A DNA stretch of 64,000 nt from Alistipes sp. (GTDB lineage: Bacteria > Bacteroidota > Bacteroidia > Bacteroidales > Rikenellaceae): assembly GCA_017398555.1 (NCBI GenBank), contig JAFQFV010000035.1, forward strand, positions 62,001 through 126,000, given 5' to 3'. Below the pieces are notes generated by a model. The model was not told where the DNA came from, searched no databases, and saw only the letters and a program-made list of their open reading frames with translations. The translations under genes were made by a program, and so were the position numbers. Shown piece by piece: positions 1,474 through 61,161 of the stretch. Position 1 is the stretch's first letter, and every line of letters starts with the position of its first letter.

Positions 1474-2918
1474 TATCTCCACCATTTAAGGAATAACAAC
1501 TGTATAAAACCAAATATCTCAAGACGACCCATCAACATCAAAATAGAGTCCTGAATCTTCAATATCGCAGGTATATCGGCAAAATTACTCATCGAGCCGA
1601 CCTCGCCAAAGCCCGGGCCTACATTACCTAAACAAGCTACAGTCGAGGTAAATGCTGTCAGCATATCCTGACCAAAGAGGGTATTTATAAATGTCGCCAA
1701 TAGTAGCAGCGCTATGTAAGTAACGATAAACACTACCACATTATCGAGCATATCATCATCTTGAACCACGCCATCAACGCGAATACGGATAACTGCGTTA
1801 GGGTGCTGCTGACGACGAATTCGTGCCATAAGAATCTTGCAGAATATCAACAACCTATCCACCTTCACACCACCCGAAGTAGAACCCGCACAAGCACAAA
1901 CAATAGAGATAAAAATGAGAACTACTATTGCGAACGGTGTCCAGGCATTTGTATCGGCCGTAGAATAACCCGTAGAGGACATAAGCGAGACTACTTGGAA
2001 GTAGGCATAGCGTAGTGCCTGCCAGATATCGGTGTAGATATTTGCATCGTAGATGCTTACTGTAATGAGCAGCGTTGCCACAACGACAATGGCAATATAT
2101 GTTCTGACAACCTCCGAACGGAAGATATTATTCCCCTTGCGCAGAAAGGTTGCATATATCAATCCGAAGTGCAAACTCGATATAAACATCGCCGCAGCCA
2201 AAATCATCTCGACAAGTGGGTTGTCATAGAAGGCGATACTTGCATTCTTTGTACTAAAACCCGCTGTTGCACAAGCCGACATGGCGTGGGTAAGTGCATC
2301 AAACCAACGCAAACCCGCAAGTTTGAGTGCCAAGGTGGTTGTCAGGGTAAGGCCAACATAGACAATAAGCAAGATACGCACGATAATCTGTGTACGGTAG
2401 CGATAGTTATCCTTAGCAAGGGACGAGAGTTCCACATTGGATAGCGACATTCGACTCGTACCGAGTGACGGCAGAATAATCAACGCAAACATAACAACTC
2501 CCACACCACCAAGCCAATTTGTAGATATTCGATAGAAGAGCAGGCCCTGCGGCAGATACTCTATATCGTTCAATATCGTTGCACCTGTAGCCGTGAAGCC
2601 CGAAACACTCTCAAACCAAGCATTTACCAGCGTAAACTCGCCACCCCAGATAAGGTACGGGAACATTCCCACAACACTTGCAAGAATCCACGAACCCACA
2701 ACGATTGCAAATCCCTCCTTATTGGAGATAGATTTTGCACGGGGCACAAAGAGCAGCGGAAAGGCACCCAAAGTGAGTGTAAGCATTGCCGAGAGCAGTA
2801 GGGGATAGAAGCCCGAATCGACGCTATTCATATATGAGATACCAGCCGACACCGCCATAAATGCCGACACGCACAGCATAACTGTACCTACATATCTCAA
2901 TATAACACTTACACGCAT
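1473..2918 (-). CDS. trkH: TrkH-family potassium uptake channel subunit
   Basis: A 481-residue integral membrane protein with about ten hydrophobic segments, full length for the family. The four pore-loop repeats of Trk/Ktr channels are visible: SGFTATGAT, ACATAGFST, MSSTGYST and LGNVGPGFG. The TrkH signature GSTSGGVK lies near residue 345. It forms the K+ pore of the Trk system in the inner membrane and normally pairs with the cytosolic NAD-binding TrkA. No trkA is present in the window, so the partner must lie elsewhere. It starts 5 nt after the stop of the upstream sensor-like gene and its own stop overlaps the next start, so all three form one operon. Confidence 0.93.
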   Translation of the reverse strand: MRVSVILRYVGTVMLCVSAFMAVSAGISYMNSVDSGFYPLLLSAMLTLTLGAFPLLFVPRAKSISNKEGFAIVVGSWILASVVGMFPYLIWGGEFTLVNAWFESVSGFTATGATILNDIEYLPQGLLFYRISTNWLGGVGVVMFALIILPSLGTSRMSLSNVELSSLAKDNYRYRTQIIVRILLIVYVGLTLTTTLALKLAGLRWFDALTHAMSACATAGFSTKNASIAFYDNPLVEMILAAAMFISSLHFGLIYATFLRKGNNIFRSEVVRTYIAIVVVATLLITVSIYDANIYTDIWQALRYAYFQVVSLMSSTGYSTADTNAWTPFAIVVLIFISIVCACAGSTSGGVKVDRLLIFCKILMARIRRQQHPNAVIRIRVDGVVQDDDMLDNVVVFIVTYIALLLLATFINTLFGQDMLTAFTSTVACLGNVGPGFGEVGSMSNFADIPAILKIQDSILMLMGRLEIFGFIQLLFLKWWR

Positions 2919-2923
2919 ACTCT

Positions 2924-3739
2924 TTACTGTCTATTCTGCTTTGACAAACCGATAAGTCGCTCAATATTCTCTGTCAGCTCCTTGAGCTCATCGAGCAAAT
3001 CGCCCTTCACGCCAAACGGCAGACGATAACTCAAGTAGTTTGACAATGAGCCATTTATCTTCTCGATAGGTTTAACGCAGTAGATACGGATAAAGTAGTA
3101 GAACATCAGCACTATGGCAATCATCACCACCAGCGAGATAAAGACCGGAGCCACAGAGCGATAGGCGTTCTTATTAAGCTGTTCTGCACGTGGAGCAAGC
3201 GAACTATGGGTGTGAGTCATAAAGCTCTGAATCTCCTCCACAAGCTCCTCATAAGCGGGTTTATACGACTCATCGTACCACAACTTACCACGCAAAGCGA
3301 CCAACTCACTATCCTCAATTGTCTCGGCAACACCGATAGTCTGCAACTGAATCTGTGTAGGCTGCTCGGTAAATACAAATTGGTCTGTCACCTCGCGCAG
3401 ATGTACTGCACGGAGCAACAGAGAGTCCAAACACGATACATCCAACGCCTCACTGCGAGCCGTAGCAATCTTGCCGTCAAGGTCACTCATAACCCTACGA
3501 CAGACATCCCTCTGGGCGTGCTCATCAAAGATAGCCACGTGCAGCACCGCCTGACTATGTTCGTGCGCAGACTTGAGCATATCCTTGGCAATCTCCATAT
3601 TACGACGAGATGCTGCGAGGATAACCTCCGTATCGTTACTAAGGTTACTCAACTCAAACAATGAAATAATACCCGAAGCGAACAGCAGCGCCACGATACT
3701 CAAAAATCCTATTGTTACTCTTGTGCCTAAACCTCTCAT
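2924..3739 (-). CDS. Membrane sensor-like protein (two TM segments, HAMP-like tail, no output domain)
   Basis: This 271-residue protein has an N-terminal membrane segment (about residues 8-28), a mostly helical extracytoplasmic region of about 160 residues, a second membrane segment (about 200-220) and a HAMP-like linker with a coiled-coil end. That is the sensory half of a histidine kinase or chemoreceptor, but no kinase or signalling domain follows and the next gene is trkH. A role as accessory or sensory partner of the K+ channel is inference from the operon. ATG 3739 is chosen over the in-frame TTG at 3748 because that TTG lies inside the -7 promoter box. The transcript is then almost leaderless. 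Confidence 0.6.
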   Translation of the reverse strand: MRGLGTRVTIGFLSIVALLFASGIISLFELSNLSNDTEVILAASRRNMEIAKDMLKSAHEHSQAVLHVAIFDEHAQRDVCRRVMSDLDGKIATARSEALDVSCLDSLLLRAVHLREVTDQFVFTEQPTQIQLQTIGVAETIEDSELVALRGKLWYDESYKPAYEELVEEIQSFMTHTHSSLAPRAEQLNKNAYRSVAPVFISLVVMIAIVLMFYYFIRIYCVKPIEKINGSLSNYLSYRLPFGVKGDLLDELKELTENIERLIGLSKQNRQ

Positions 3740-51486: not shown

Positions 51487-52764
51487 ATGAACAAAGGCAA
51501 GTTACTGATACGTGGCGGATTGGCTGTAGGAATGGGCAAATCCCGCATCGCCGATATCCTTATTGAGGATGGTATTATTGCGGCTATCGGCACCGATATT
51601 TCAGCAGACAATCAGACCGAAATATTCGATGCTACAGGATGCGTTGTCACCTACGGACTTGCCGATGCACACGTACATCTTCGCGAGCCGGGCTACTCCG
51701 AGAAGGAGACCATCGCTACCGGTACTGCGGCAGCTGCACATGGTGGCGTAACCACAGTACTATCGATGCCAAACCTCAACCCCGCACCCGATAGTGTTGA
51801 GAATATCGCCATCCAGCAGGCGATGATTGATGAGCAAGCGGTAATCGAGGTTCGCCCTTATGCGACAATTACCAATCGCCGTATAGGCAAGCAGATTGTC
51901 GATGCAGCAGCACTTGCACCACACTGCGTAGGTTTTTCGGATGACGGCAGTGGCGTGCAGAGCCGCGAGGTTATGCTCGAGGCGATGAAGAGCATTGCCG
52001 CTGTAGATGGTATTATTGCGGCACATTGCGAGGATGAGAGTCTGCTCGCCGGTGGTTATATCCACGCAGGCGACTATGCGGCACTGAACGGACACAAGGG
52101 TATCCCTGCCTGTTCGGAGTATATGCCGTTTATTCGTGATATAGATTTGATAGCCCAGAGCGGCTGTCGTTACCACTTCTGCCATATGTCGGCACGCAAC
52201 AGCGTTATCGCTCTGCGCAACGCCAAGCGTATGGGTCTGCCCGTTTCGGGAGAGACAGGTCCGCACTACCTGACTATGGTCGATTTGGATATTATGAACG
52301 AGGGTCGATTCAAGATGAACCCGCCAATTCGTAGCGAGGCTGACCGCGATGCACTTATCGAGGGTATTATAGACGGCACTATCGAGGTTATCGCCACCGA
52401 CCACGCACCGCATACAGCCGAGCAGAAGAGCAAGGGTCTTGCGGGCAGTGCTATGGGCGTTGTGGGTCTTGAGACCTCATTTGCAGTATGCTACACCAAA
52501 CTTGTTCGCACAGGTATTATCACCATCGAGAAGCTCATTGAGCTGATGTGTGACAATCCACGTCGCATCTTCCGCCTCGGTGGAGGTTTGGAGGTTGGAC
52601 AAAGGGCCGACATTGCGGTATTTGACACCACTACCCCATTCAAGGTTGATAGCAGCACCTTCTTATCAAAGGGCAAGGCGACACCATTTGAGGGTTGGGA
52701 GTTGCTTGGCCGTTGCCGACTAACACTCTTTGGAGGCAAGGTGGTTTGGAGAGAGAACGAATAA
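51487..52764 (+). CDS. pyrC: Dihydroorotase
   Basis: A 425-residue class I amidohydrolase that closes carbamoyl aspartate to dihydroorotate. The metal-binding DAHVHLREPGYSEKETI (about residues 59-75) has the HxH pair. Later come a His in CHMSARNS, the catalytic region IEVIATDHAPHT and the end with GRRADIAVFD-like GQRADIAVFD. It is the first structural gene of the pyr operon, placed directly behind the leader terminator. Confidence 0.95.
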   Translation: MNKGKLLIRGGLAVGMGKSRIADILIEDGIIAAIGTDISADNQTEIFDATGCVVTYGLADAHVHLREPGYSEKETIATGTAAAAHGGVTTVLSMPNLNPAPDSVENIAIQQAMIDEQAVIEVRPYATITNRRIGKQIVDAAALAPHCVGFSDDGSGVQSREVMLEAMKSIAAVDGIIAAHCEDESLLAGGYIHAGDYAALNGHKGIPACSEYMPFIRDIDLIAQSGCRYHFCHMSARNSVIALRNAKRMGLPVSGETGPHYLTMVDLDIMNEGRFKMNPPIRSEADRDALIEGIIDGTIEVIATDHAPHTAEQKSKGLAGSAMGVVGLETSFAVCYTKLVRTGIITIEKLIELMCDNPRRIFRLGGGLEVGQRADIAVFDTTTPFKVDSSTFLSKGKATPFEGWELLGRCRLTLFGGKVVWRENE

Positions 52765-52782
52765 AATAATTATATAAATTGT

Positions 52783-53871
52783 ATGAAAGAGAAGAGACTT
52801 GTACTGAGTAATGGCAAGAGTTTTTCGGGCTACGGCTTTGGTGCCGACCGTCAGGCTGTTTGCAACATTGCATTTAACACCTCGGTAGTGGGTTATCAGG
52901 AGATTATCTCCGACCCAAGCAACTACAATCAGATTGTGGTTATGACCTACCCTACTATCGGAAACTACGGTATCAATGATGAGGACTTCGAGTCACGCAT
53001 CGTCAGCATAGGCGGTCTTGTGGTTCGTGAGTACTGCACAATGCCGAGCAACTTCCGCTATACCAAGACCATTGACGAGATTATGGAGGAGAACTCTATC
53101 CCGGGTATCTATGGCGTTGATACTCGCGCACTGACACGTGCTCTGCGTGATGGTGGTGTAACTCGCGCAGCTATCGTAGATGCCGATATGAGCATTGAGG
53201 ATGCAGTAAAGCTTATCGAGAGCACCCCTGCTGAGAAGGATGTGGTTTCAAAGGTTAGCTGCCGTAAGCGTTGGTACTCTCGTACCCCTAACCACAAGTA
53301 CGATGTTGTGGTTGTCGATTGCGGTGTTAAGCGTGCAATTATCGAGGAGCTTAACCGTCGTGAGTGCAACGTAATTATCGTGCCTTACAACACACCTATC
53401 GAGGAGATTCGTGCATTCAATCCGCACGGTATCTTTATCTCGAATGGTCCGGGCTCTCCTACAGACCTTCCGCAGGTTATTGAGCTTATCAAGGCTCTGC
53501 GTGGTGAGCTTCCGATGATGGGTATCAGTCTCGGTCACCTGCTTATCGGTATGGCATACGGTGCTACTGTCGAGAGCGTTGAGGGCGGAAATCGCGCAAG
53601 TGCACGTCCTATCCGTAACGCCATTACAAACCGTATTGAGATGACCGGTATGAGTATGGAGTACACCATAGCAAAGGATGTTGAGAGCAAGACAAACCTC
53701 ACCGTCACCCACACCAACGTTCTTGATGGCAGCGTAGTAGGCGTTGAGTGCCGCAAGGACAAGGTCTTCTCAGTACAGTTCCATCCCGAGGGCGCTCCGG
53801 GAGCTACAAATGACAGCGCATACCTTTTCGATAAATTCATTAAACTGATGGAGGATAACAAAAATGCCTAA
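52783..53871 (+). CDS. carA: Carbamoyl-phosphate synthetase small subunit with a degenerate glutaminase site
   Basis: A 362-residue small subunit. The N-terminal CPSase domain is well preserved ([34 protein letters not shown] in parts). The C-terminal class I glutamine amidotransferase domain keeps NGPGSPTD and the HPE pair (His334, Glu336), but the nucleophile motif GICLGHQ reads GISLGHL: Ser249 (codon AGT at 53527-53529) replaces Cys, and Leu253 replaces Gln. The QNHGF glutamine-binding motif is also lost (TGMSMEY). Glutamine hydrolysis is predicted to be absent, leaving a structural subunit for an ammonia-using enzyme. It overlaps carB by 8 nt. Confidence 0.92.
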
Positions 53872-56800
53872 GAGAACAGATATCAAGAAAGTGATGGTTA
53901 TTGGCTCCGGCCCAATCGTTATTGGCCAGGCAGCCGAGTTCGACTATGCAGGTACCCAGGCGTGCCTTGCACTCAAGGAGGAGGGTTACGAGGTTATTCT
54001 CGTGAACTCTAACCCTGCAACCATTATGACCGACACCTTCATTGCCGACAAGGTATATATGGAGCCGCTGAAGTTGGAGTATGTCGCAAAGATTATCCGC
54101 TACGAGCGTCCTGACGCTATCGTTCCGGGTCTTGGTGGTCAGACAGGTCTTAACCTCGCAGTTCAGCTCGCCAAGAAGGGTATTTTGGAGGAGTGTCAGG
54201 TAGAGATTCTCGGTACATCTTTCCAGAGCATCGAGCAGGCTGAGGACCGCGAGATGTTCAAGGAGCTCTGTATCAAGCTCGGCGAGCCGGTTATCCCGTC
54301 AGAGATTGTATATTCGGTAGATGAGGCTGTTGAGGTGGCAAAGAAGATTGGCTACCCTGTAGTTCTCCGTCCTGCCTTCACCCTCGGTGGTTCAGGTGGT
54401 GGTTTTGCCGACGATGAGCAGCAGTTGCGCGAGATGATGCGTAATGCGCTGGCCGTATCTCCTGTACACCAGGTGCTTGTAGAGAAGAGTATCAAGGGTT
54501 ACAAGGAGATTGAGTTCGAGGTGATGCGCGATAAGAACGACACTGCAATCGCCATCTGTAGTATGGAGAATGTGGACCCTGTAGGTATCCACACAGGCGA
54601 TAGTATCGTTGTTGCACCTGCACAGACCCTCTCAAATAAGGAGTTCCAGATGTTGCGTGACAGCGCACTCAGACTCATTCGTGCACTCAAGATTGAGGGT
54701 GGTTGTAACGTGCAGTTTGCACTCGACCCACTCTCATTCAAGTACTATATTATCGAGGTAAATCCTCGCGTATCTCGTTCATCTGCCCTTGCATCTAAGG
54801 CGAGTGGTTTCCCTATCGCCCGCGTAACTGCAAAGGTGGCTATAGGTATGACCCTTGATGAGATTTTGTTGGAGGGTACCCCTGCTTGCTGCGAGCCTGC
54901 TATTGACTACGTAGTGACAAAGGTGGCACGCTTCCCATTCGATAAGTTCAGCGAGGCTTCAAACGAGCTGGGAACGCAGATGAAGGCTACAGGTGAGGCA
55001 ATGAGTATCGGTCGTACTATCGAGGAGAGCTTGCTCAAGGCTCTGCGCTCACTTGAGACCGGTGTATGCCACATCCACCACAAGAAGTTCGACGAGATGT
55101 CCACACAGGATATGCTCGTATATATCACTCGCGGTACTGACGACCGCATCTACGCCATTGCAGAGCTGCTGCGTCGTGGCATAGACCGTTCGCTGATTTA
55201 TGACCGCACAAAGATTGATATGCTCTTCCTTGAGAAGTTCAAGAATATCGTTCGTATGGAGCGTCGTCTTGCAGAGGCTAAGGGCGAGAAGGAGGCACTC
55301 TATGAGGCTAAGCGTATGGGCTTTGGCGATAAGTTTATCGGCCAGCTCTGGGGTATGACCGAGCGCGAGGTATTCGAGCTGCGTGAGAGTTTCGACATCA
55401 AACCTGTATATAAGATTATCGACTCTTGCTCAGGCGAGTTCGACCGCTATATCCCATACTTCTACTCTACATACGAGCAGGAGAATGAGTCTATCGTATC
55501 CAATCGCAAGAAGATTGTCGTTCTGGGTTCAGGTCCTATCCGTATCGGTCAGGGTGTAGAGTTCGACTACTCGACCGTACACGCTATTTGGGCTATCCGC
55601 GAGGCGGGTTATGAGGCGATTATCATCAACAACAACCCTGAGACCGTATCTACAGACTACACTATCTCCGATAAGCTCTACTTCGAGCCGCTGACCGTTG
55701 AGAATGTGATGAACATCATCCACCACGAGCAGCCGGAGGGCGTAATCGTTACCCTCGGTGGTCAGACAGCTATCAACCTTGCCAAGCCGCTGGTTCAGAT
55801 GGGCGTGAAGATTATCGGTACCGACCTTGAGGCTATCGATAAGGCTGAGGACCGTAAGCTCTTCGAGGCTATTATGCGCGAGGTGGGTATTCCACAGCCA
55901 CAGGCAAAGGCCGTAACCGAGATTGAGGATGGTGTTGCAGCGGCAGAGACTATCGGCTACCCTGTGCTTGTTCGTCCAAGCTTCGTGCTCGGTGGTCGTG
56001 CTATGCAGATTGTAGGTAACGAGCAGGCTCTGCGTCACTATCTGCACAATGCGGTAGAGATTAATGAGGACTCCCCTGTACTTGTCGATAAGTACATTAT
56101 GGGTAAAGAGGCTGAGGTAGATGCTATCTGTGACGGCACAGATGTATTTATTCCGGGTATTATGGAGCACGTTGAGAGAACAGGTATCCACTCCGGCGAC
56201 TCAATCAGCGTATATCCATCATTCAGCCTTAGCGACGATGTTAAGCAGAAGATGATTGACTACACCGTACGTCTGGGTAAGGCTATCGGCATTGTCGGTC
56301 TGTACAATATTCAGTTTATCGTGGATAACGAGGATAAGGTCTATGTTATCGAGGTCAATCCGCGCTCTTCACGTACCGTACCGTTCCTCTCAAAGTCTTG
56401 CAATGTCCCTATGGCAAAGATTGCAACCCGAGTAATGCTCGGTCACTCTCTTAAGGAGCAGGGTATTACAGAGGTTTATGGTCGTGAGCGCAAGCGTTTC
56501 TTCGTCAAGACCCCTGCATTCTCATTTGCAAAGATTAAGGGTATCGATACATACCTCTCTCCTGAGATGAAATCTACAGGTGAGGCTATCGGTTACGACA
56601 ACTCTATGACCCGTGCACTCTACAAGTCACTTCAGGCATCGGGTATGGATGTGGTAAACTACGGTACCGTGCTTGTAACCCTTGCCGATAAGGATAAGCA
56701 GGCTGCCCTGCCACTTATTGAGCGCTTCTACAACCTCGGTTTCAACATCGAGGCGACAAAGGGTACTGCCGATTTCCTTCGTACTCACGGCATCCGCACC

Positions 56801-57055
56801 CGTAAGCTGAGTAAGCTCATTGAGGGTAGCGACGATATCTATCGTTCACTCTCCCGTGGCCACGTAAACTACGTTATCAACACCATTGACCTTAACCAGC
56901 ACAGCGCACGTCTTGATGGTTACGAGATTCGTCGTGCAGCGGTTGAGAATAATGTTACCATCTTCACATCCCTTGAGACTGTAAGCGTACTGCTTCAGGT
57001 ACTTGAGGAGATTACACTCGGCGTTTCAACAATTGACGCAGATTACGACAAATAG
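53864..57055 (+). CDS. carB: Carbamoyl-phosphate synthetase large subunit
   Basis: A 1063-residue protein with two homologous ATP-grasp halves. The first (carboxyphosphate) half starts [21 protein letters not shown]. The second (carbamoyl phosphate) half starts [20 protein letters not shown] near residue 549. [20 protein letters not shown] and its counterpart [15 protein letters not shown] are intact, and the C-terminal MGS-like domain is present. It synthesises carbamoyl phosphate from bicarbonate, 2 ATP and ammonia, the latter normally from CarA glutaminase. With the altered CarA, free ammonia is the likely donor. It is translationally coupled to carA. Confidence 0.97.
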
Positions 57056-57056
57056 T

Positions 57057-57794
57057 ATGAAACAAACTGTTTTTGAGATAGTTACAAACAGAGCTCTTAC
57101 CGAGAGCGTCTATGAAATGACTCTCGCGGGTGATACTTCGGCCATCACCCGCCCGGGTCAATTTGTAGAACTCTCGCTTGAGGGCTACTTCCTTCGCCGT
57201 CCGATATCTGTCTGCAACTATGACGAGGGCAAACTGACCCTCATCTACAAGGTTGTAGGTAAGGGTACGGCGCAGATGGCTACCCTTGCTGCAGGAGTCA
57301 AGATTGACACGCTGACAGGTCTTGGTAACGGCTTTGACACCACAGTTGAGCACAACCACGCTCTACTTGTTGGTGGTGGCGTAGGTGTTCCACCGCTCTA
57401 TCGTCTTGCTCGCAACCTTATTGCAGAGGGTAAGCAAGTTACCGTCGTGCTTGGCTTTAATACCGCTGCAGAGATATTCTATCGTGAGCAGTTTGAGGCT
57501 TTGGGCGTTAAGGTTATCATCGCCACTGCAGATGGCAGTGTAGGTGTGAAGGGTTTTGTTACCGACGCTATAGCACAGCAGGTGACAGATGCCGACTACT
57601 TCTACTCTTGTGGCCCGCTGCCTATGCTCCGCGCACTGACTCAGAACCTTACAATTCCCGGTCAGATTAGCCTTGAAGAGCGTATGGGCTGTGGTTTTGG
57701 TATATGTATGGGTTGCTCTATCCAGACCGTTAATGGTGCAAAGAGAGTGTGTAAAGAGGGCCCTGTATTCAGAAAGGAGGAGGTACTATGGTAA
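57057..57794 (+). CDS. pyrK: Dihydroorotate dehydrogenase electron-transfer subunit
   Basis: A 245-residue flavin/iron-sulfur protein. The FAD motif RRPISVCNY (about residues 46-54), the NAD-binding region LLVGGGVGVPPLYRLA and the C-terminal cluster CGFGICMGCSIQTVNGAKRVC (C-x4-C-x2-C-xn-C, read in parts) bind FAD, NAD and a 2Fe-2S cluster. It transfers electrons from PyrD to NAD+. The start is ATG 57057, directly after carB, rather than an upstream frame overlapping it. It overlaps pyrD by 7 nt. Confidence 0.95.
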   Translation: MKQTVFEIVTNRALTESVYEMTLAGDTSAITRPGQFVELSLEGYFLRRPISVCNYDEGKLTLIYKVVGKGTAQMATLAAGVKIDTLTGLGNGFDTTVEHNHALLVGGGVGVPPLYRLARNLIAEGKQVTVVLGFNTAAEIFYREQFEALGVKVIIATADGSVGVKGFVTDAIAQQVTDADYFYSCGPLPMLRALTQNLTIPGQISLEERMGCGFGICMGCSIQTVNGAKRVCKEGPVFRKEEVLW

Positions 57795-58702
57795 GAGATT
57801 TATCGACAACCCTTTGTGGTGTAGAGCTTGACAACCCGATTATTCCTGCAAGCGGCACATTTGGCTTTGGTGCAGAGATGTCAGAGGTCTATGATCTTGA
57901 TATCCTCGGCTCTATATCGTTCAAGGGCACTACCCTTGAGCCACGTTTTGGTAACCCTACGCCGAGAATTGCGGAGTGCCGTTCGGGTATGATTAACTCG
58001 GTAGGTCTGCAAAATCCGGGTATTGATGCCGTTATTGCTCACGAGCTTCCGGAGCTTCGCAAGCGTTTCCATAAGCCGATTATCGCAAACATCAGCGGTT
58101 TTTCTATCGAGGAGTACACCGAGTGCTGCCGAAAGATTGACAAACAGGAGCAGGTAGAGATTATCGAGGTAAATGTCTCTTGCCCTAATGTTCACAATGG
58201 CGGCATGGCATTTGGCACCTCACCTGAGAGTGCTGCTGCGGTAACTGCTGCGGTAAAGGCGGTGACAACAAAGCCCGTATTTATCAAGCTCAGTCCGAAT
58301 GTTACAGATATAGTATCTATCGCCCGCGCGTGCGAGGATGCCGGTGCTGACGGACTTACGCTGATTAATACTATGCTCGGTATGAGGATTGACATTGCTC
58401 GCCGTCGCCCTGTAATTGCCAACAAGATGGGTGGTTTCTCGGGTCAGGCAATCTTCCCTGTGGCAGTAAGAATGGTCTATCAGGTGGCAAATGCCTGCAA
58501 GATACCCGTTATCGGTTGCGGTGGTGTAGCCACTGCCGAGGATGTTATCGAGATGATGATGGCAGGTGCAAGTGCAGTTCAGGTGGGTGCAGAGAATCTG
58601 CGTAACCCATTTGCTTGCAAACAGATTATTGAAAATCTGCCAAAGGTTATGGAAAAGCTTGGCATTGAGCGACTACGAGATATTATTGGAATAGTTAAAT
58701 AA
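57788..58702 (+). CDS. pyrD: Dihydroorotate dehydrogenase, class 1B catalytic subunit
   Basis: A 304-residue FMN enzyme. The catalytic Cys is in [13 protein letters not shown] (about residues 128-140). [21 protein letters not shown] and the phosphate-binding [25 protein letters not shown] (in parts) are present. Together with PyrK it forms the NAD-linked class 1B enzyme oxidising dihydroorotate to orotate, suited to anaerobic life. Confidence 0.97.
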
Positions 58703-58710
58703 AAATAGAT

Positions 58711-59409
58711 ATGAGAGATGTAATTATCGCTTGTGATTTTTCAAGCAAAGAGCAGACATTGGCATTCCTTGACCGCTTTACCGGTCGTAAGCCATTTGTA
58801 AAGATTGGTATGGAGCTCTTCTATGCCTGTGGTCCGGATATCGTACGCGAAATTAAGGCTCGTGGTCATAAGATTTTCCTTGACCTTAAGTTGCACGACA
58901 TTCCAAATACAGTTCGCAAGGCTATGAGCGTGCTTTCAAACCTTGACGTGGATATGACAAACGTTCACGCTGCCGGTACTGTTGATATGATGCGTGCTGC
59001 CCTTGAGGGTCTTACTCGTCCTGATGGTACACGTCCGCTGCTTATCGCCGTGACACAGCTCACATCTACAAGCCAGGAGCGTATGCAGCGCGAGCTTCTT
59101 ATCAGCGCTACAATCAACGACACTATTGCAAAGTATGCCGAGAATGCAAAGGTTGCAGGTCTTGATGGCGTAGTTTGTTCACCTCTTGAGGCTGAGCTTG
59201 TTAAGGAGCACTGCGGCGCAGAGTTTATGACCGTTACCCCAGGTATCCGCTTTGCAGATGCTGCGGCAGACGATCAGGTGCGTATCACAACCCCTGCTCG
59301 TGCACGCGAGATTGGCTCTGACTACATCGTTGTAGGTCGTCCTGTAACTGCTGCAGAGGACCCTGTAGCGGCTTATGAGCGTTGCTGTCGCGAGTTTATT
59401 GGCGAGTAA
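58711..59409 (+). CDS. pyrF: Orotidine 5'-phosphate decarboxylase
   Basis: A 232-residue TIM-barrel enzyme converting OMP to UMP. The catalytic motif [13 protein letters not shown] (DxKxxD, about residues 54-66), an early [23 protein letters not shown] and the closing [12 protein letters not shown] are all present. This is the PyrF type of about 230 residues, not the long Bacteroidota/mycobacterial type. Confidence 0.96.
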
Positions 59410-59436: not shown

Positions 59437-60066
59437 ATGGAGAAAATCATTGCAAAAGAGTTGCTCAAAATCAGCGCAGTATTCCTTCGCCCTGAGCAGC
59501 CGTTTACTTGGGCAAGCGGCATTAAGAGCCCTATATATTGCGACAATCGTCTGATTCTTACCGCACCATCTGCTCGTGAGAAGGTGGAGGCAGGCCTTGC
59601 GGAGCTCGTTCGCAAGCACTTCCCTGAGTGTGAGTGTCTTATGGGTACATCAACTGCGGGTATTGCTCACGCAGCTATCGTAGCGACAATTCTCGATATG
59701 CCTATGGGTTATGTTCGTAGCGGCGCAAAGGATCACGGTCGCACAAACCGCATCGAGGGTAAGCTCGAGCCAGGTACAAAGGTTGTTGTTGTAGAGGACC
59801 TTATCTCTACAGGTGGCAGCTGCATCGAGGTTGTTGAGGCTCTTCGTGAGGCTGGTGCAGAGGTGCTCGGTATCGTGAGCATCTTCACATACGGAATGAA
59901 GCGTGGCGTTGAGAGAATCGCTGCTGCAAATACCGTAAACTACTCACTCTCTAACCTTGACTCACTTGTTGAGGTGGCTGCAGAGGAGGGTTACATCGCC
60001 CCTGAGTGGAAGGATAGAATCCTCGCCTTCCGCAACAACCCATCAGACGAGAGCTGGATTAAATAA
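59437..60066 (+). CDS. pyrE: Orotate phosphoribosyltransferase
   Basis: A 209-residue type I phosphoribosyltransferase joining orotate and PRPP to OMP. The PRPP motif [12 protein letters not shown] (about residues 110-121), the flexible loop [11 protein letters not shown] and the N-terminal [14 protein letters not shown] are intact. It sits between pyrF and pyrB. Confidence 0.97.
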
Positions 60067-60090: not shown

Positions 60091-61161
60091 ATGAGGCACC
60101 TAATTGACCCTACAGACCTGACTCGCAAGGAGACTGACGACATCGTTGCTCTTGCACTCGATATTATCGCCAATCGCGAGGCTTACAGTGAGAAGATGAA
60201 GGGCAAGAAGCTCGCTACCCTATTCTACGAGCCAAGTACCCGTACTCGTCTGAGCTTTACATCGGCTATGATGGAGCTTGGTGGTAATGTTCTCGGTTTC
60301 TCGGATGCTGCATCATCATCTGTAAGCAAAGGTGAGACCGTGGAGGATACCGTGCGTGTTGTCGGCTGCTTTGCAGACATTATCGCGATGCGCCACCACA
60401 TTGAGGGTGCACAGCTCGCTGCATCTGCAGTATCTCCTGTGCCGATTATCAATGCCGGTGACGGTAGCCACTCTCACCCTACACAGACACTTACCGATTT
60501 GCTTACAATCACTCGCGAGTTGGGACATGTTGATAACATTACTATCGGCTTCTGCGGCGATTTGAAGTACGGACGTACCGTTCACTCGCTTATCAAGGCA
60601 CTTGTTCGCTACTCAGGCATTAAGATTGTGCTTATCTCTCCGGAGGAGCTTCGCCTGCCTGACTATATCAAGACCGACATCTGCGATAAGTTCGGCATTG
60701 AGTACACCGAGGCTGGCAGCATCGAGGAGGTTATGGGCGAGCTCGACATTCTCTATATGACCCGCGTACAGAAGGAGCGTTTTACTGACGAGGCTGAGTA
60801 TGAGAGAGTTAAGAACTGCTTTGTGCTCGACGCCGAGCGTATGAAGCTTGCAAAGGAGCGTATGGCTGTTCTCCACCCACTGCCACGTGTGAACGAGATT
60901 ACCCGCGAGGTTGATGCCGACCCACGCGCCGCATACTTCCGTCAGGTTGAGAATGGTAAGTTTGTCCGTATGGCACTTATCCTCTCGCTTATGCGCTGGA
61001 AGGGCGAGCAGATGGTAGAGCGCCACGAGAAGGGCGAGATAGATGGTCTGCGCTGCCCTAACCATAAGTGCATCACAAACAATGAGCCTATGGAGCGCTA
61101 CTTCTACACTGCCGACAACGGCGTTCACCGCTGCTACTACTGCGACACCAAGGCGGAGTAA
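60091..61161 (+). CDS. pyrB: Aspartate carbamoyltransferase with a C-terminal PyrI-like zinc domain
   Basis: A 356-residue protein, about 45 residues longer than ordinary PyrB. The catalytic part has the carbamoyl-phosphate site YEPSTRTRLSF (about residues 50-60), SHSHPTQTLTDL and LHPLPRVNEI. After about residue 310 the tail carries CPNHKC (Cys322, Cys327) and CYYC (Cys348, Cys351), the same C-x4-C...C-x2-C pattern and CPN-C-I-EP context as the zinc domain of the regulatory subunit PyrI. The nucleotide-binding half of PyrI is absent here, and no pyrI gene is in the window. It ends the pyr operon. Confidence 0.95.
   Translation: MRHLIDPTDLTRKETDDIVALALDIIANREAYSEKMKGKKLATLFYEPSTRTRLSFTSAMMELGGNVLGFSDAASSSVSKGETVEDTVRVVGCFADIIAMRHHIEGAQLAASAVSPVPIINAGDGSHSHPTQTLTDLLTITRELGHVDNITIGFCGDLKYGRTVHSLIKALVRYSGIKIVLISPEELRLPDYIKTDICDKFGIEYTEAGSIEEVMGELDILYMTRVQKERFTDEAEYERVKNCFVLDAERMKLAKERMAVLHPLPRVNEITREVDADPRAAYFRQVENGKFVRMALILSLMRWKGEQMVERHEKGEIDGLRCPNHKCITNNEPMERYFYTADNGVHRCYYCDTKAE

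Follow-up and report, generated by a model that had tools for sequence, protein, structure and literature searches.

Glutamine is regarded as the standard nitrogen donor of bacterial nucleotide synthesis, and the pyr operon described here raises the question of whether its carbamoyl-phosphate synthase can still draw on it. The window, by which we mean the whole analysed stretch of 64,000 nucleotides from Alistipes sp., holds a cluster ordered pyrC-carA-carB-pyrK-pyrD-pyrF-pyrE-pyrB, in which the small subunit gene carA has lost the codon for its glutaminase nucleophile. The features of the locus are as follows.

51487..52764, plus strand: pyrC, dihydroorotase, upstream of carA (TIGR00857, 360 bits)
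52783..53871, plus strand: carA, carbamoyl-phosphate synthase small subunit without the glutaminase nucleophile (open reading frame of 362 aa)
52798..53175, plus strand: CPSase small-chain domain of CarA, residues 6-131, intact (PF00988, 159 bits)
53308..53844, plus strand: class I glutamine amidotransferase (GATase) domain of CarA, residues 176-354, dead as judged by its residues (PF00117, 133 bits)
53527..53529, plus strand: CarA codon 249, AGT, Ser replacing the nucleophile Cys (E. coli position 269; from the alignment)
53539..53541, plus strand: CarA codon 253, Leu replacing Gln (E. coli position 273; from the alignment)
53581..53613, plus strand: CarA residues 267-277, [11 protein letters not shown], replacing the GHxGGNHPV segment
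53644..53664, plus strand: CarA residues 288-294, TGMSMEY, replacing the T(A/S)QNHGF loop (E. coli 308-314)
53782..53790, plus strand: CarA His334-Pro-Glu336, the two triad residues left (E. coli 353 and 355)
53864..57055, plus strand: carB, large subunit (profile match and PDB alignment; 14 checked positions all conserved)
57051..57794, plus strand: pyrK, dihydroorotate dehydrogenase electron transfer subunit (NF000799, 244 bits, below the cut-off of 314; PF10418)
57788..58702, plus strand: pyrD, dihydroorotate dehydrogenase (NF005574, 441 bits)
58711..59409, plus strand: pyrF, orotidine-5'-phosphate decarboxylase (NF001273, 298 bits)
59437..60066, plus strand: pyrE, orotate phosphoribosyltransferase (NF001729, 157 bits, below the cut-off of 245)
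60091..61161, plus strand: pyrB, aspartate carbamoyltransferase with a C-terminal PyrI metal-binding domain (TIGR00670, 346 bits; PF02748)

The C-terminal PF02748 domain of PyrB looks as if the PyrI regulatory chain had been cut down to its zinc domain and fused.

CarA residues were mapped by aligning the protein with PDB sequences of E. coli CarA. The best match, 1c30, also has Ser at 269; we take this entry to be an engineered mutant of an otherwise normal E. coli CarAB, and position 269 to be the nucleophile Cys in the wild type. Gln273 and the loop 310-314 of the E. coli protein presumably bind glutamine. In the window CarA the nucleophile region reads GISLGHL (residues 247-253) and the region of His334 and Glu336 reads QFHPEG. 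A preliminary description of this DNA had named Ser249 for Cys, GISLGHL, the altered 267-277 segment, TGMSMEY and the retained His334 and Glu336. Codon, translation and alignment bear out each of them, and the loss of the glutaminase active site in this CarA is confirmed as far as its residues go. The protein nevertheless matches TIGR01368, the glutamine-hydrolyzing CPS small subunit, over its full length (385 bits against a cut-off of 307), with both the CPSase and GATase domains, an adjacent carB and the His and Glu, but without the nucleophile Cys (Ser249) and the glutamine-binding residues (Leu253, TGMSMEY). Profile annotation therefore conceals the loss of the glutaminase.

The preliminary description had considered a sequencing error at codon 249 and thought it unlikely. 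We likewise rejected such an error as unlikely, given the identical residue in separate MAGs: the nearest of these, L106 (92% identical), has the same GISLGHL, which is also present in L035, L036, L037, L038, L040 and L041. A hidden, Cys-bearing CarA was rejected as well. No second CarA of any kind was found in the genome to which the window belongs (89.4% complete), and only three class I GATases were found there, namely CarA, CTP synthase and GMP synthase. Genome G021 does have a second, partial CarA at a contig end, which contains an in-frame stop and has Asp at the nucleophile position.

The synthetase, on the other hand, appears to be intact. As had been claimed, the CPSase domain and the overlap of the carA end with the carB start at 53864 are undamaged, and the window CarB aligns to E. 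coli CarB along nearly its whole length. Among 117 CarB rows, which include redundant rows and outgroups, 13 of 14 positions that we assume to be catalytic or to line the ATP sites (two of them placed approximately) are invariant, and the remaining one is E in 115 rows and D in two. With the catalytic Cys missing and the synthetase intact, the enzyme has the residue pattern expected of an ammonia-type CPS. The CarB proteins of the genus are distant from those of other Bacteroidales; closest to them are L088 and L097, which are labelled Clostridia and Oscillospiraceae. The carAB locus was thus probably acquired from Firmicutes before the losses, unless these labels are wrong. In the order outgroup G038 (L017/L336), a single open frame of 1457 aa covers both carA and carB, an apparent CarA-CarB fusion.

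How far the loss extends was read from CarA in 53 of 61 genomes (the window's own and 60 relatives; the other eight had no match over the cut-off) and from 79 loci taken from GTDB genomes, for the most part MAGs that bear the name Alistipes sp. or Rikenellaceae bacterium, with many labelled as ruminant-derived. Merging proteins that were identical over shared columns left 119 distinct CarA, 25 of the outgroup (L017 and L336, the same gene, counted once) and 94 of the lineage, a term that covers all rows outside the two outgroup lists and may include a few non-genus rows. Cys-His-Glu was found in 25/25 outgroup CarA (18 of the order and seven labelled Firmicutes or Omnitrophota) compared to 13/94 in the lineage. 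The Cys was missing in the other 81, where it was replaced by Asp (31), Ser (24), Gly (20), Asn (2), Glu (2) or Ala (2). The whole triad was altered in 38 of these 81, 29 times to Asp-Gln-Asp, and the D clade retained neither the triad His nor the Glu. Among the 37 genus genomes (G000-G036), 26 had a CarA without Cys and nine an intact one, while carA was absent from G031 and was not found in G018. The preliminary description was therefore right about the loss of the glutaminase and too narrow in confining it to one CarA, since it is widespread in the genus and, as described below, also concerns CTP synthase, GMP synthase and PurF.

In the genome search, G031 (85% complete) yielded a full CarB but no match to CarA. 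When its locus L353 was searched by tblastn with the eight pyr proteins of the window, seven were found within 16 kb, in the order pyrC, carB, pyrK, pyrD, pyrF, pyrE, pyrB and in that orientation, but carA was not; pyrC is followed directly by carB, with about 100 bases between them. In the CarB tree the branch of G031 measures 0.20 compared to 0.035 and 0.057 for its sisters. This long branch, in one genome, fits what would be expected if the subunit interface had been released. In the outlier of the genus, G018 (locus L354), the CarB belongs to another type and is 39% identical to that of the window; no CarA was found beside it or elsewhere in that genome.

On the CarB tree of 36 genus genomes and five named loci, presence of the CarA Cys requires at least four changes, one of these being the absence in G031, and the residue itself requires eight. 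These counts apply to the carAB locus, assume no recombination between carA and carB and by themselves give no direction; loss is the likely direction because all outgroup CarA have the Cys. The Cys-bearing loci L047, L056 and L074 nest between clades with a dead CarA. G031 in the PurF and GuaA trees, and the window clade in the PyrG tree, are placed otherwise than in the CarB tree. Since the CarB, PyrG, PurF and GuaA trees disagree in places, we do not offer the CarB tree as a species tree, and the losses may partly have spread by transfer.

One explanation is that CarA is decaying towards loss because pyrimidine salvage has made carbamoyl phosphate synthesis dispensable. The absence of carA in G031, the in-frame stop in the partial second CarA of G021 and the failure to find pyrG in nine genomes agree with this. 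So does the faster change of CarA relative to CarB: the ratio of dN in the GATase half to dN in CarB, taken from medians, is 3.4-6.1 in the dead clades compared to 2.4 in the intact clade. However, the median omega of the GATase half is 0.106, 0.074, 0.119, 0.103 and 0.116 in the five dead clades compared to 0.191 in the intact clade, and that of CarB is 0.030-0.047 in every dead clade compared to 0.115. The CPSase part of CarA (residues 4-165) has an omega of about 0.1 in the window clade. These are pairwise Nei-Gojobori medians from which pairs with dS of at least 2.5 were dropped (in the window clade 7/36 for the CPSase part and 1/36 for the GATase half), and they are rough, as dS was often above 1. 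The values show no relaxation in the dead clades, the intact clade having the higher one. Moreover, none of the 53 CarA matches that scored above the family cut-off contained an in-frame stop, and CarB and the remaining pyr operon persist even without carA. We therefore consider decay very unlikely, in line with the earlier view that this is not simple decay. Purifying selection instead acts on the GATase half of the dead CarA, in keeping with a protein that serves CarB as a structural or allosteric partner.

A constrained GATase domain could also mean that glutamine is still hydrolysed by other chemistry, with Ser249 as the nucleophile or with a separate glutaminase docking on CarB. Ser accounts for 24 of the 81 replacements, and His and Glu are kept in 19 of these 24. 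Yet 51 of the 57 CarA in which the site holds Gly, Ala, Asp, Asn or Glu are also without the His or the Glu, the window clade has lost its glutamine-binding loop, and G031 has no CarA at all. In addition, vertebrate CPS I without the Cys is described, in a passage of PMC7657897, as using only free ammonia. Other chemistry is thus very unlikely, and a CarA without glutaminase function remains our preferred reading.

The same kind of loss was found in CTP synthase. The PyrG of the window's own genome (539 aa, G000:C34:73875-75449) reads FFGIGLGMHC where intact relatives read GICLGMQC, so that the Cys is replaced by Gly, and it retains the His and Glu. Across the 37 genus genomes, PyrG is without Cys in eight, keeps the Cys with His changed to Asn in three, and is intact by motif in 17; the match in G014 is additionally split by a stop near the N-terminus. 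It was not found in the other nine (G001, G005, G008, G020, G024, G027, G030, G031 and G034), of which six are at least 91% complete and four more than 93%. The PyrG proteins that have lost function by their residues form two clades, each beside intact PyrG of the genus, and hence look like in-place changes. The genomes without PyrG must salvage cytidine or have another route to CTP.

GMP synthase was changed in a different way. The GuaA of the own genome, encoded about 13 kb past the window end, has 435 aa and keeps the synthetase half, but the catalytic half of its GATase domain is missing; this short form still exceeds the cut-off of the profile named glutamine-hydrolyzing GMP synthase. GuaA is short in 17 of the 37 genus genomes, full with GVCYGAQ in 14, and not found or partial in six. 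Four changes on the CarB tree might have meant four independent truncations, but this was ruled out, as all 17 short forms are one clade (100/100) on a very long stem in the GuaA tree. They are 87-91% identical to one another (six pairs) and 46-47% identical to the full GuaA of the genus (three pairs). Short GuaA was also found in nine of 392 further genomes of the order, with 86-93% identity across the 183 residues used as query, and five of these nine have a second GuaA match. Replacement of the GMP synthase of the genus by the short form through horizontal transfer is the most likely origin, judging from this tree and these identities.

Several families of the order have this short GuaA in common (L379-L387), and in L383 the short form has a full-length GuaA as its neighbour (742-2049 and 2105-3547). 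On the IMG/VR contig L408, a 74% identical short GuaA adjoins an ORF that by eye is integrase-like (671-1987 and 2109-3194), perhaps a prophage inserted at guaA. GuaA-like matches at G214:C37:79954-80127 (L389) and G244:C38:61986-62165 lie in frames of 332-335 aa, as if they were the synthetase domain alone.

Among the class II enzymes, the PurF of the own genome starts MSVLGVYGV and has Met in the Cys column of the alignment. Eight of the 37 genus genomes have this Met, 20 have Cys, six have only a paralog, and in three PurF was unreadable, not found or of another type. The Met forms, including that of G031, are one clade in the PurF tree. The paralog is a Bacteroidales PurF-like protein with an MSGFFG start and no N-terminal Cys (L368 of G041, L246, L251-L253, L262 and L264). 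It also occurs outside the genus and is the sole PurF-type match in the six genomes. PurL, found in most genus genomes, kept its Cys in 20/20 read (GICNGFQ in the own genome), and the MCGIVGY of GlmS was kept in 9/9 N-termini read (MCGIVGYIG in the own genome). NadE is present as one or both of two forms of about 530 and 645 aa. A PF01182 (NagB-like) match is absent in seven genus genomes, of which six have GlmS and G009 has neither, and GlmS and PF01182 occur together in at least three others. PF01182 covers other enzymes as well, and that a gene of this family is present wherever GlmS was not found, except in G009, is only suggestive of NagB replacing GlmS. Glutamine synthetase matches in 34/37 genus genomes indicate that glutamine is still made. 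G013, G023 and G032, all with intact CarA, are the only genus genomes with a frame of 559-582 aa, the size of asparagine synthetase B, that has a class II GATase match.

To see whether the losses go together, we cross-tabulated the 36 genus genomes other than G018, each of which has a CarB row; the GuaA state is known in 30 of them. CarA and PyrG were both changed or missing in 20 genomes and both intact in nine; in seven a dead CarA was combined with an intact PyrG, and the reverse did not occur. Likewise, a dead or absent CarA went with a short GuaA in 17 of the 30 genomes and with a full one in six, both were intact in seven, and again there was no reverse case. PyrG and GuaA agreed in 30/30, with 17 changed in both, 13 in neither and none mixed. 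PyrG was thus changed or missing in 0/9 and GuaA short in 0/7 of the genomes with intact CarA. On independent branches, PyrG and GuaA changed in the same direction in 4/4 pairs (p 0.125), and CarA changed with PyrG or GuaA in two to three of three pairs each (p 0.25-0.5), which is too few for significance. In the seven genomes of the D clade CarA is changed, whereas PyrG is intact in 7/7, GuaA is full in 6/7 (one not found) and PurF keeps its Cys. The PurF Cys is also kept in the five genomes of the G008 clade. As the D clade has changed only CarA among the enzymes read, and the G008 clade keeps the PurF Cys, the suggested order is CarA first, then PyrG and GuaA, then PurF.

Residues, domains and genes have been lost together, while the catalytic residues of CarB were kept and carAB stayed under purifying selection. 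The explanation we favour is that de novo nucleotide synthesis in this genus has been converted stepwise from glutamine to free ammonia, with CarA as a pseudo-glutaminase, and we consider this probable. CarA would be a structural partner of CarB that does not hydrolyse glutamine, and CarAB would make carbamoyl phosphate from ammonia, bicarbonate and ATP. It would be one part of a wider syndrome of ammonia-capable CPS, CTP synthase, GMP synthase and PurF without glutaminase function. Three routes would have led there. In CarA, PyrG and PurF, residues would have been substituted in place; whole genes would have gone, namely carA in G031 and pyrG in the nine genomes where it was not found; and the GMP synthase would have been replaced horizontally by a short GuaA whose glutaminase domain has no catalytic half. 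We infer that cells use ammonia as the donor, and that selection for glutamine hydrolysis was relaxed or reversed in a gut rich in ammonia. In its widest form, the proposal is that most nucleotide synthesis was moved to ammonia through convergent events of inactivation, deletion and horizontal replacement in four different glutaminase modules, that the enzymes least capable of using ammonia keep glutamine hydrolysis, and that CarB alone is the end state; on balance we lean towards this as well.

To our knowledge ammonia is no substrate for GlmS and reaches millimolar levels in ruminant guts; both points would make it easier to see why some enzymes and not others retained glutamine hydrolysis. 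Passages of PMC10526850 state that most amidotransferases, GMPS among them, can use exogenous ammonia, and CTPS is reported to do so in a passage of PMC9138612. The Km values of GMPS for NH4Cl reported in PMC10526850 reach 174 mM, so that gut ammonia may not be used efficiently. By the residues read, the conversion is also incomplete, since the G008 and D clades keep the PurF Cys and the D clade has an intact PyrG. What the nine genomes without PyrG need is cytidine salvage and not ammonia.

The selective force may have been plentiful ammonia, saved ATP or escape from glutamine analogues. If the driver was escape from Cys-trapping analogues of the DON or azaserine kind, ammonia use would be a by-product. 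This would agree with the loss of the Cys from unrelated amidotransferases (class I CarA, PyrG and GuaA and class II PurF) in the same lineages, and that a single short GuaA has spread horizontally is in keeping with a trait under selection. However, GlmS and PurL, which are also targets of glutamine analogues, keep their Cys where read, and the D clade changed CarA only. We know of no glutamine-analogue compound that acts here, and we regard this driver as unlikely. If the conversion to ammonia is correct, the role of glutamine as donor has been undone repeatedly, by different genetic routes and perhaps where ammonia is plentiful. The lineages and their intact sisters would then be natural replicates for asking why amidotransferases channel ammonia, how synthetases adapt to ammonia from solution and how CarB works without CarA. 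They would also bear on the nitrogen economy of ruminant guts. Names such as "glutamine-hydrolyzing" that rest on a profile score can mislead, as the dead CarA and the short GuaA both pass.

Searches of an open-access library showed no report of a glutaminase loss of this kind, and the nearest known systems resemble it in part. In land-vertebrate CPS I the catalytic Cys is missing and free ammonia is needed, as passages of PMC7657897 and PMC6022934 describe. It is by analogy with this enzyme that CarAB, as the preliminary description proposed, would depend on ammonia, and that PyrG and PurF with dead glutaminases and the short GuaA should also run on it. Apart from the E. coli enzyme, no PDB family but CPS1 (5dot/6uel) was matched with the thresholds used for CarA and CarB, and like the window CarA it keeps a GATase domain without the catalytic Cys. 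It differs in being a single fused chain that is mitochondrial, NAG-activated and part of the urea cycle, whereas here carA and carB are separate bacterial genes of a pyr operon, the Cys position also shows D, G, N, E or A, and carA is absent once. Because carA and carB are separate, we do not file the enzyme as a CPS I, which makes it less likely to be one but not less likely to work like one. E. coli CarAB, including 1c30 with Ser at 269, has the same subunits, and Ser249 aligns with this position; here, however, the Ser is natural and the glutamine-binding loop and Gln273 are lost too. The CPS III of Alcolapia, according to a passage of PMC7657897, has likewise shifted naturally towards ammonia and lost a glutamine-binding residue, but it retains the Cys-His-Glu triad and is a eukaryotic single gene. 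The single-domain, ammonia-dependent NAD synthetases resemble the present case in having glutamine and ammonia forms, lineage loss and horizontal transfer, although PMC3376133 takes their ammonia form to be the ancestral one and a single enzyme is concerned there, compared to four enzymes losing their glutaminase here. Finally, the anabolic carbamate kinase of Pyrococcus, as described in a passage of PMC6022934, also makes carbamoyl phosphate from ammonia without a glutaminase, but with an unrelated fold, whereas the enzyme of this genus has a canonical ATP-grasp CarB.
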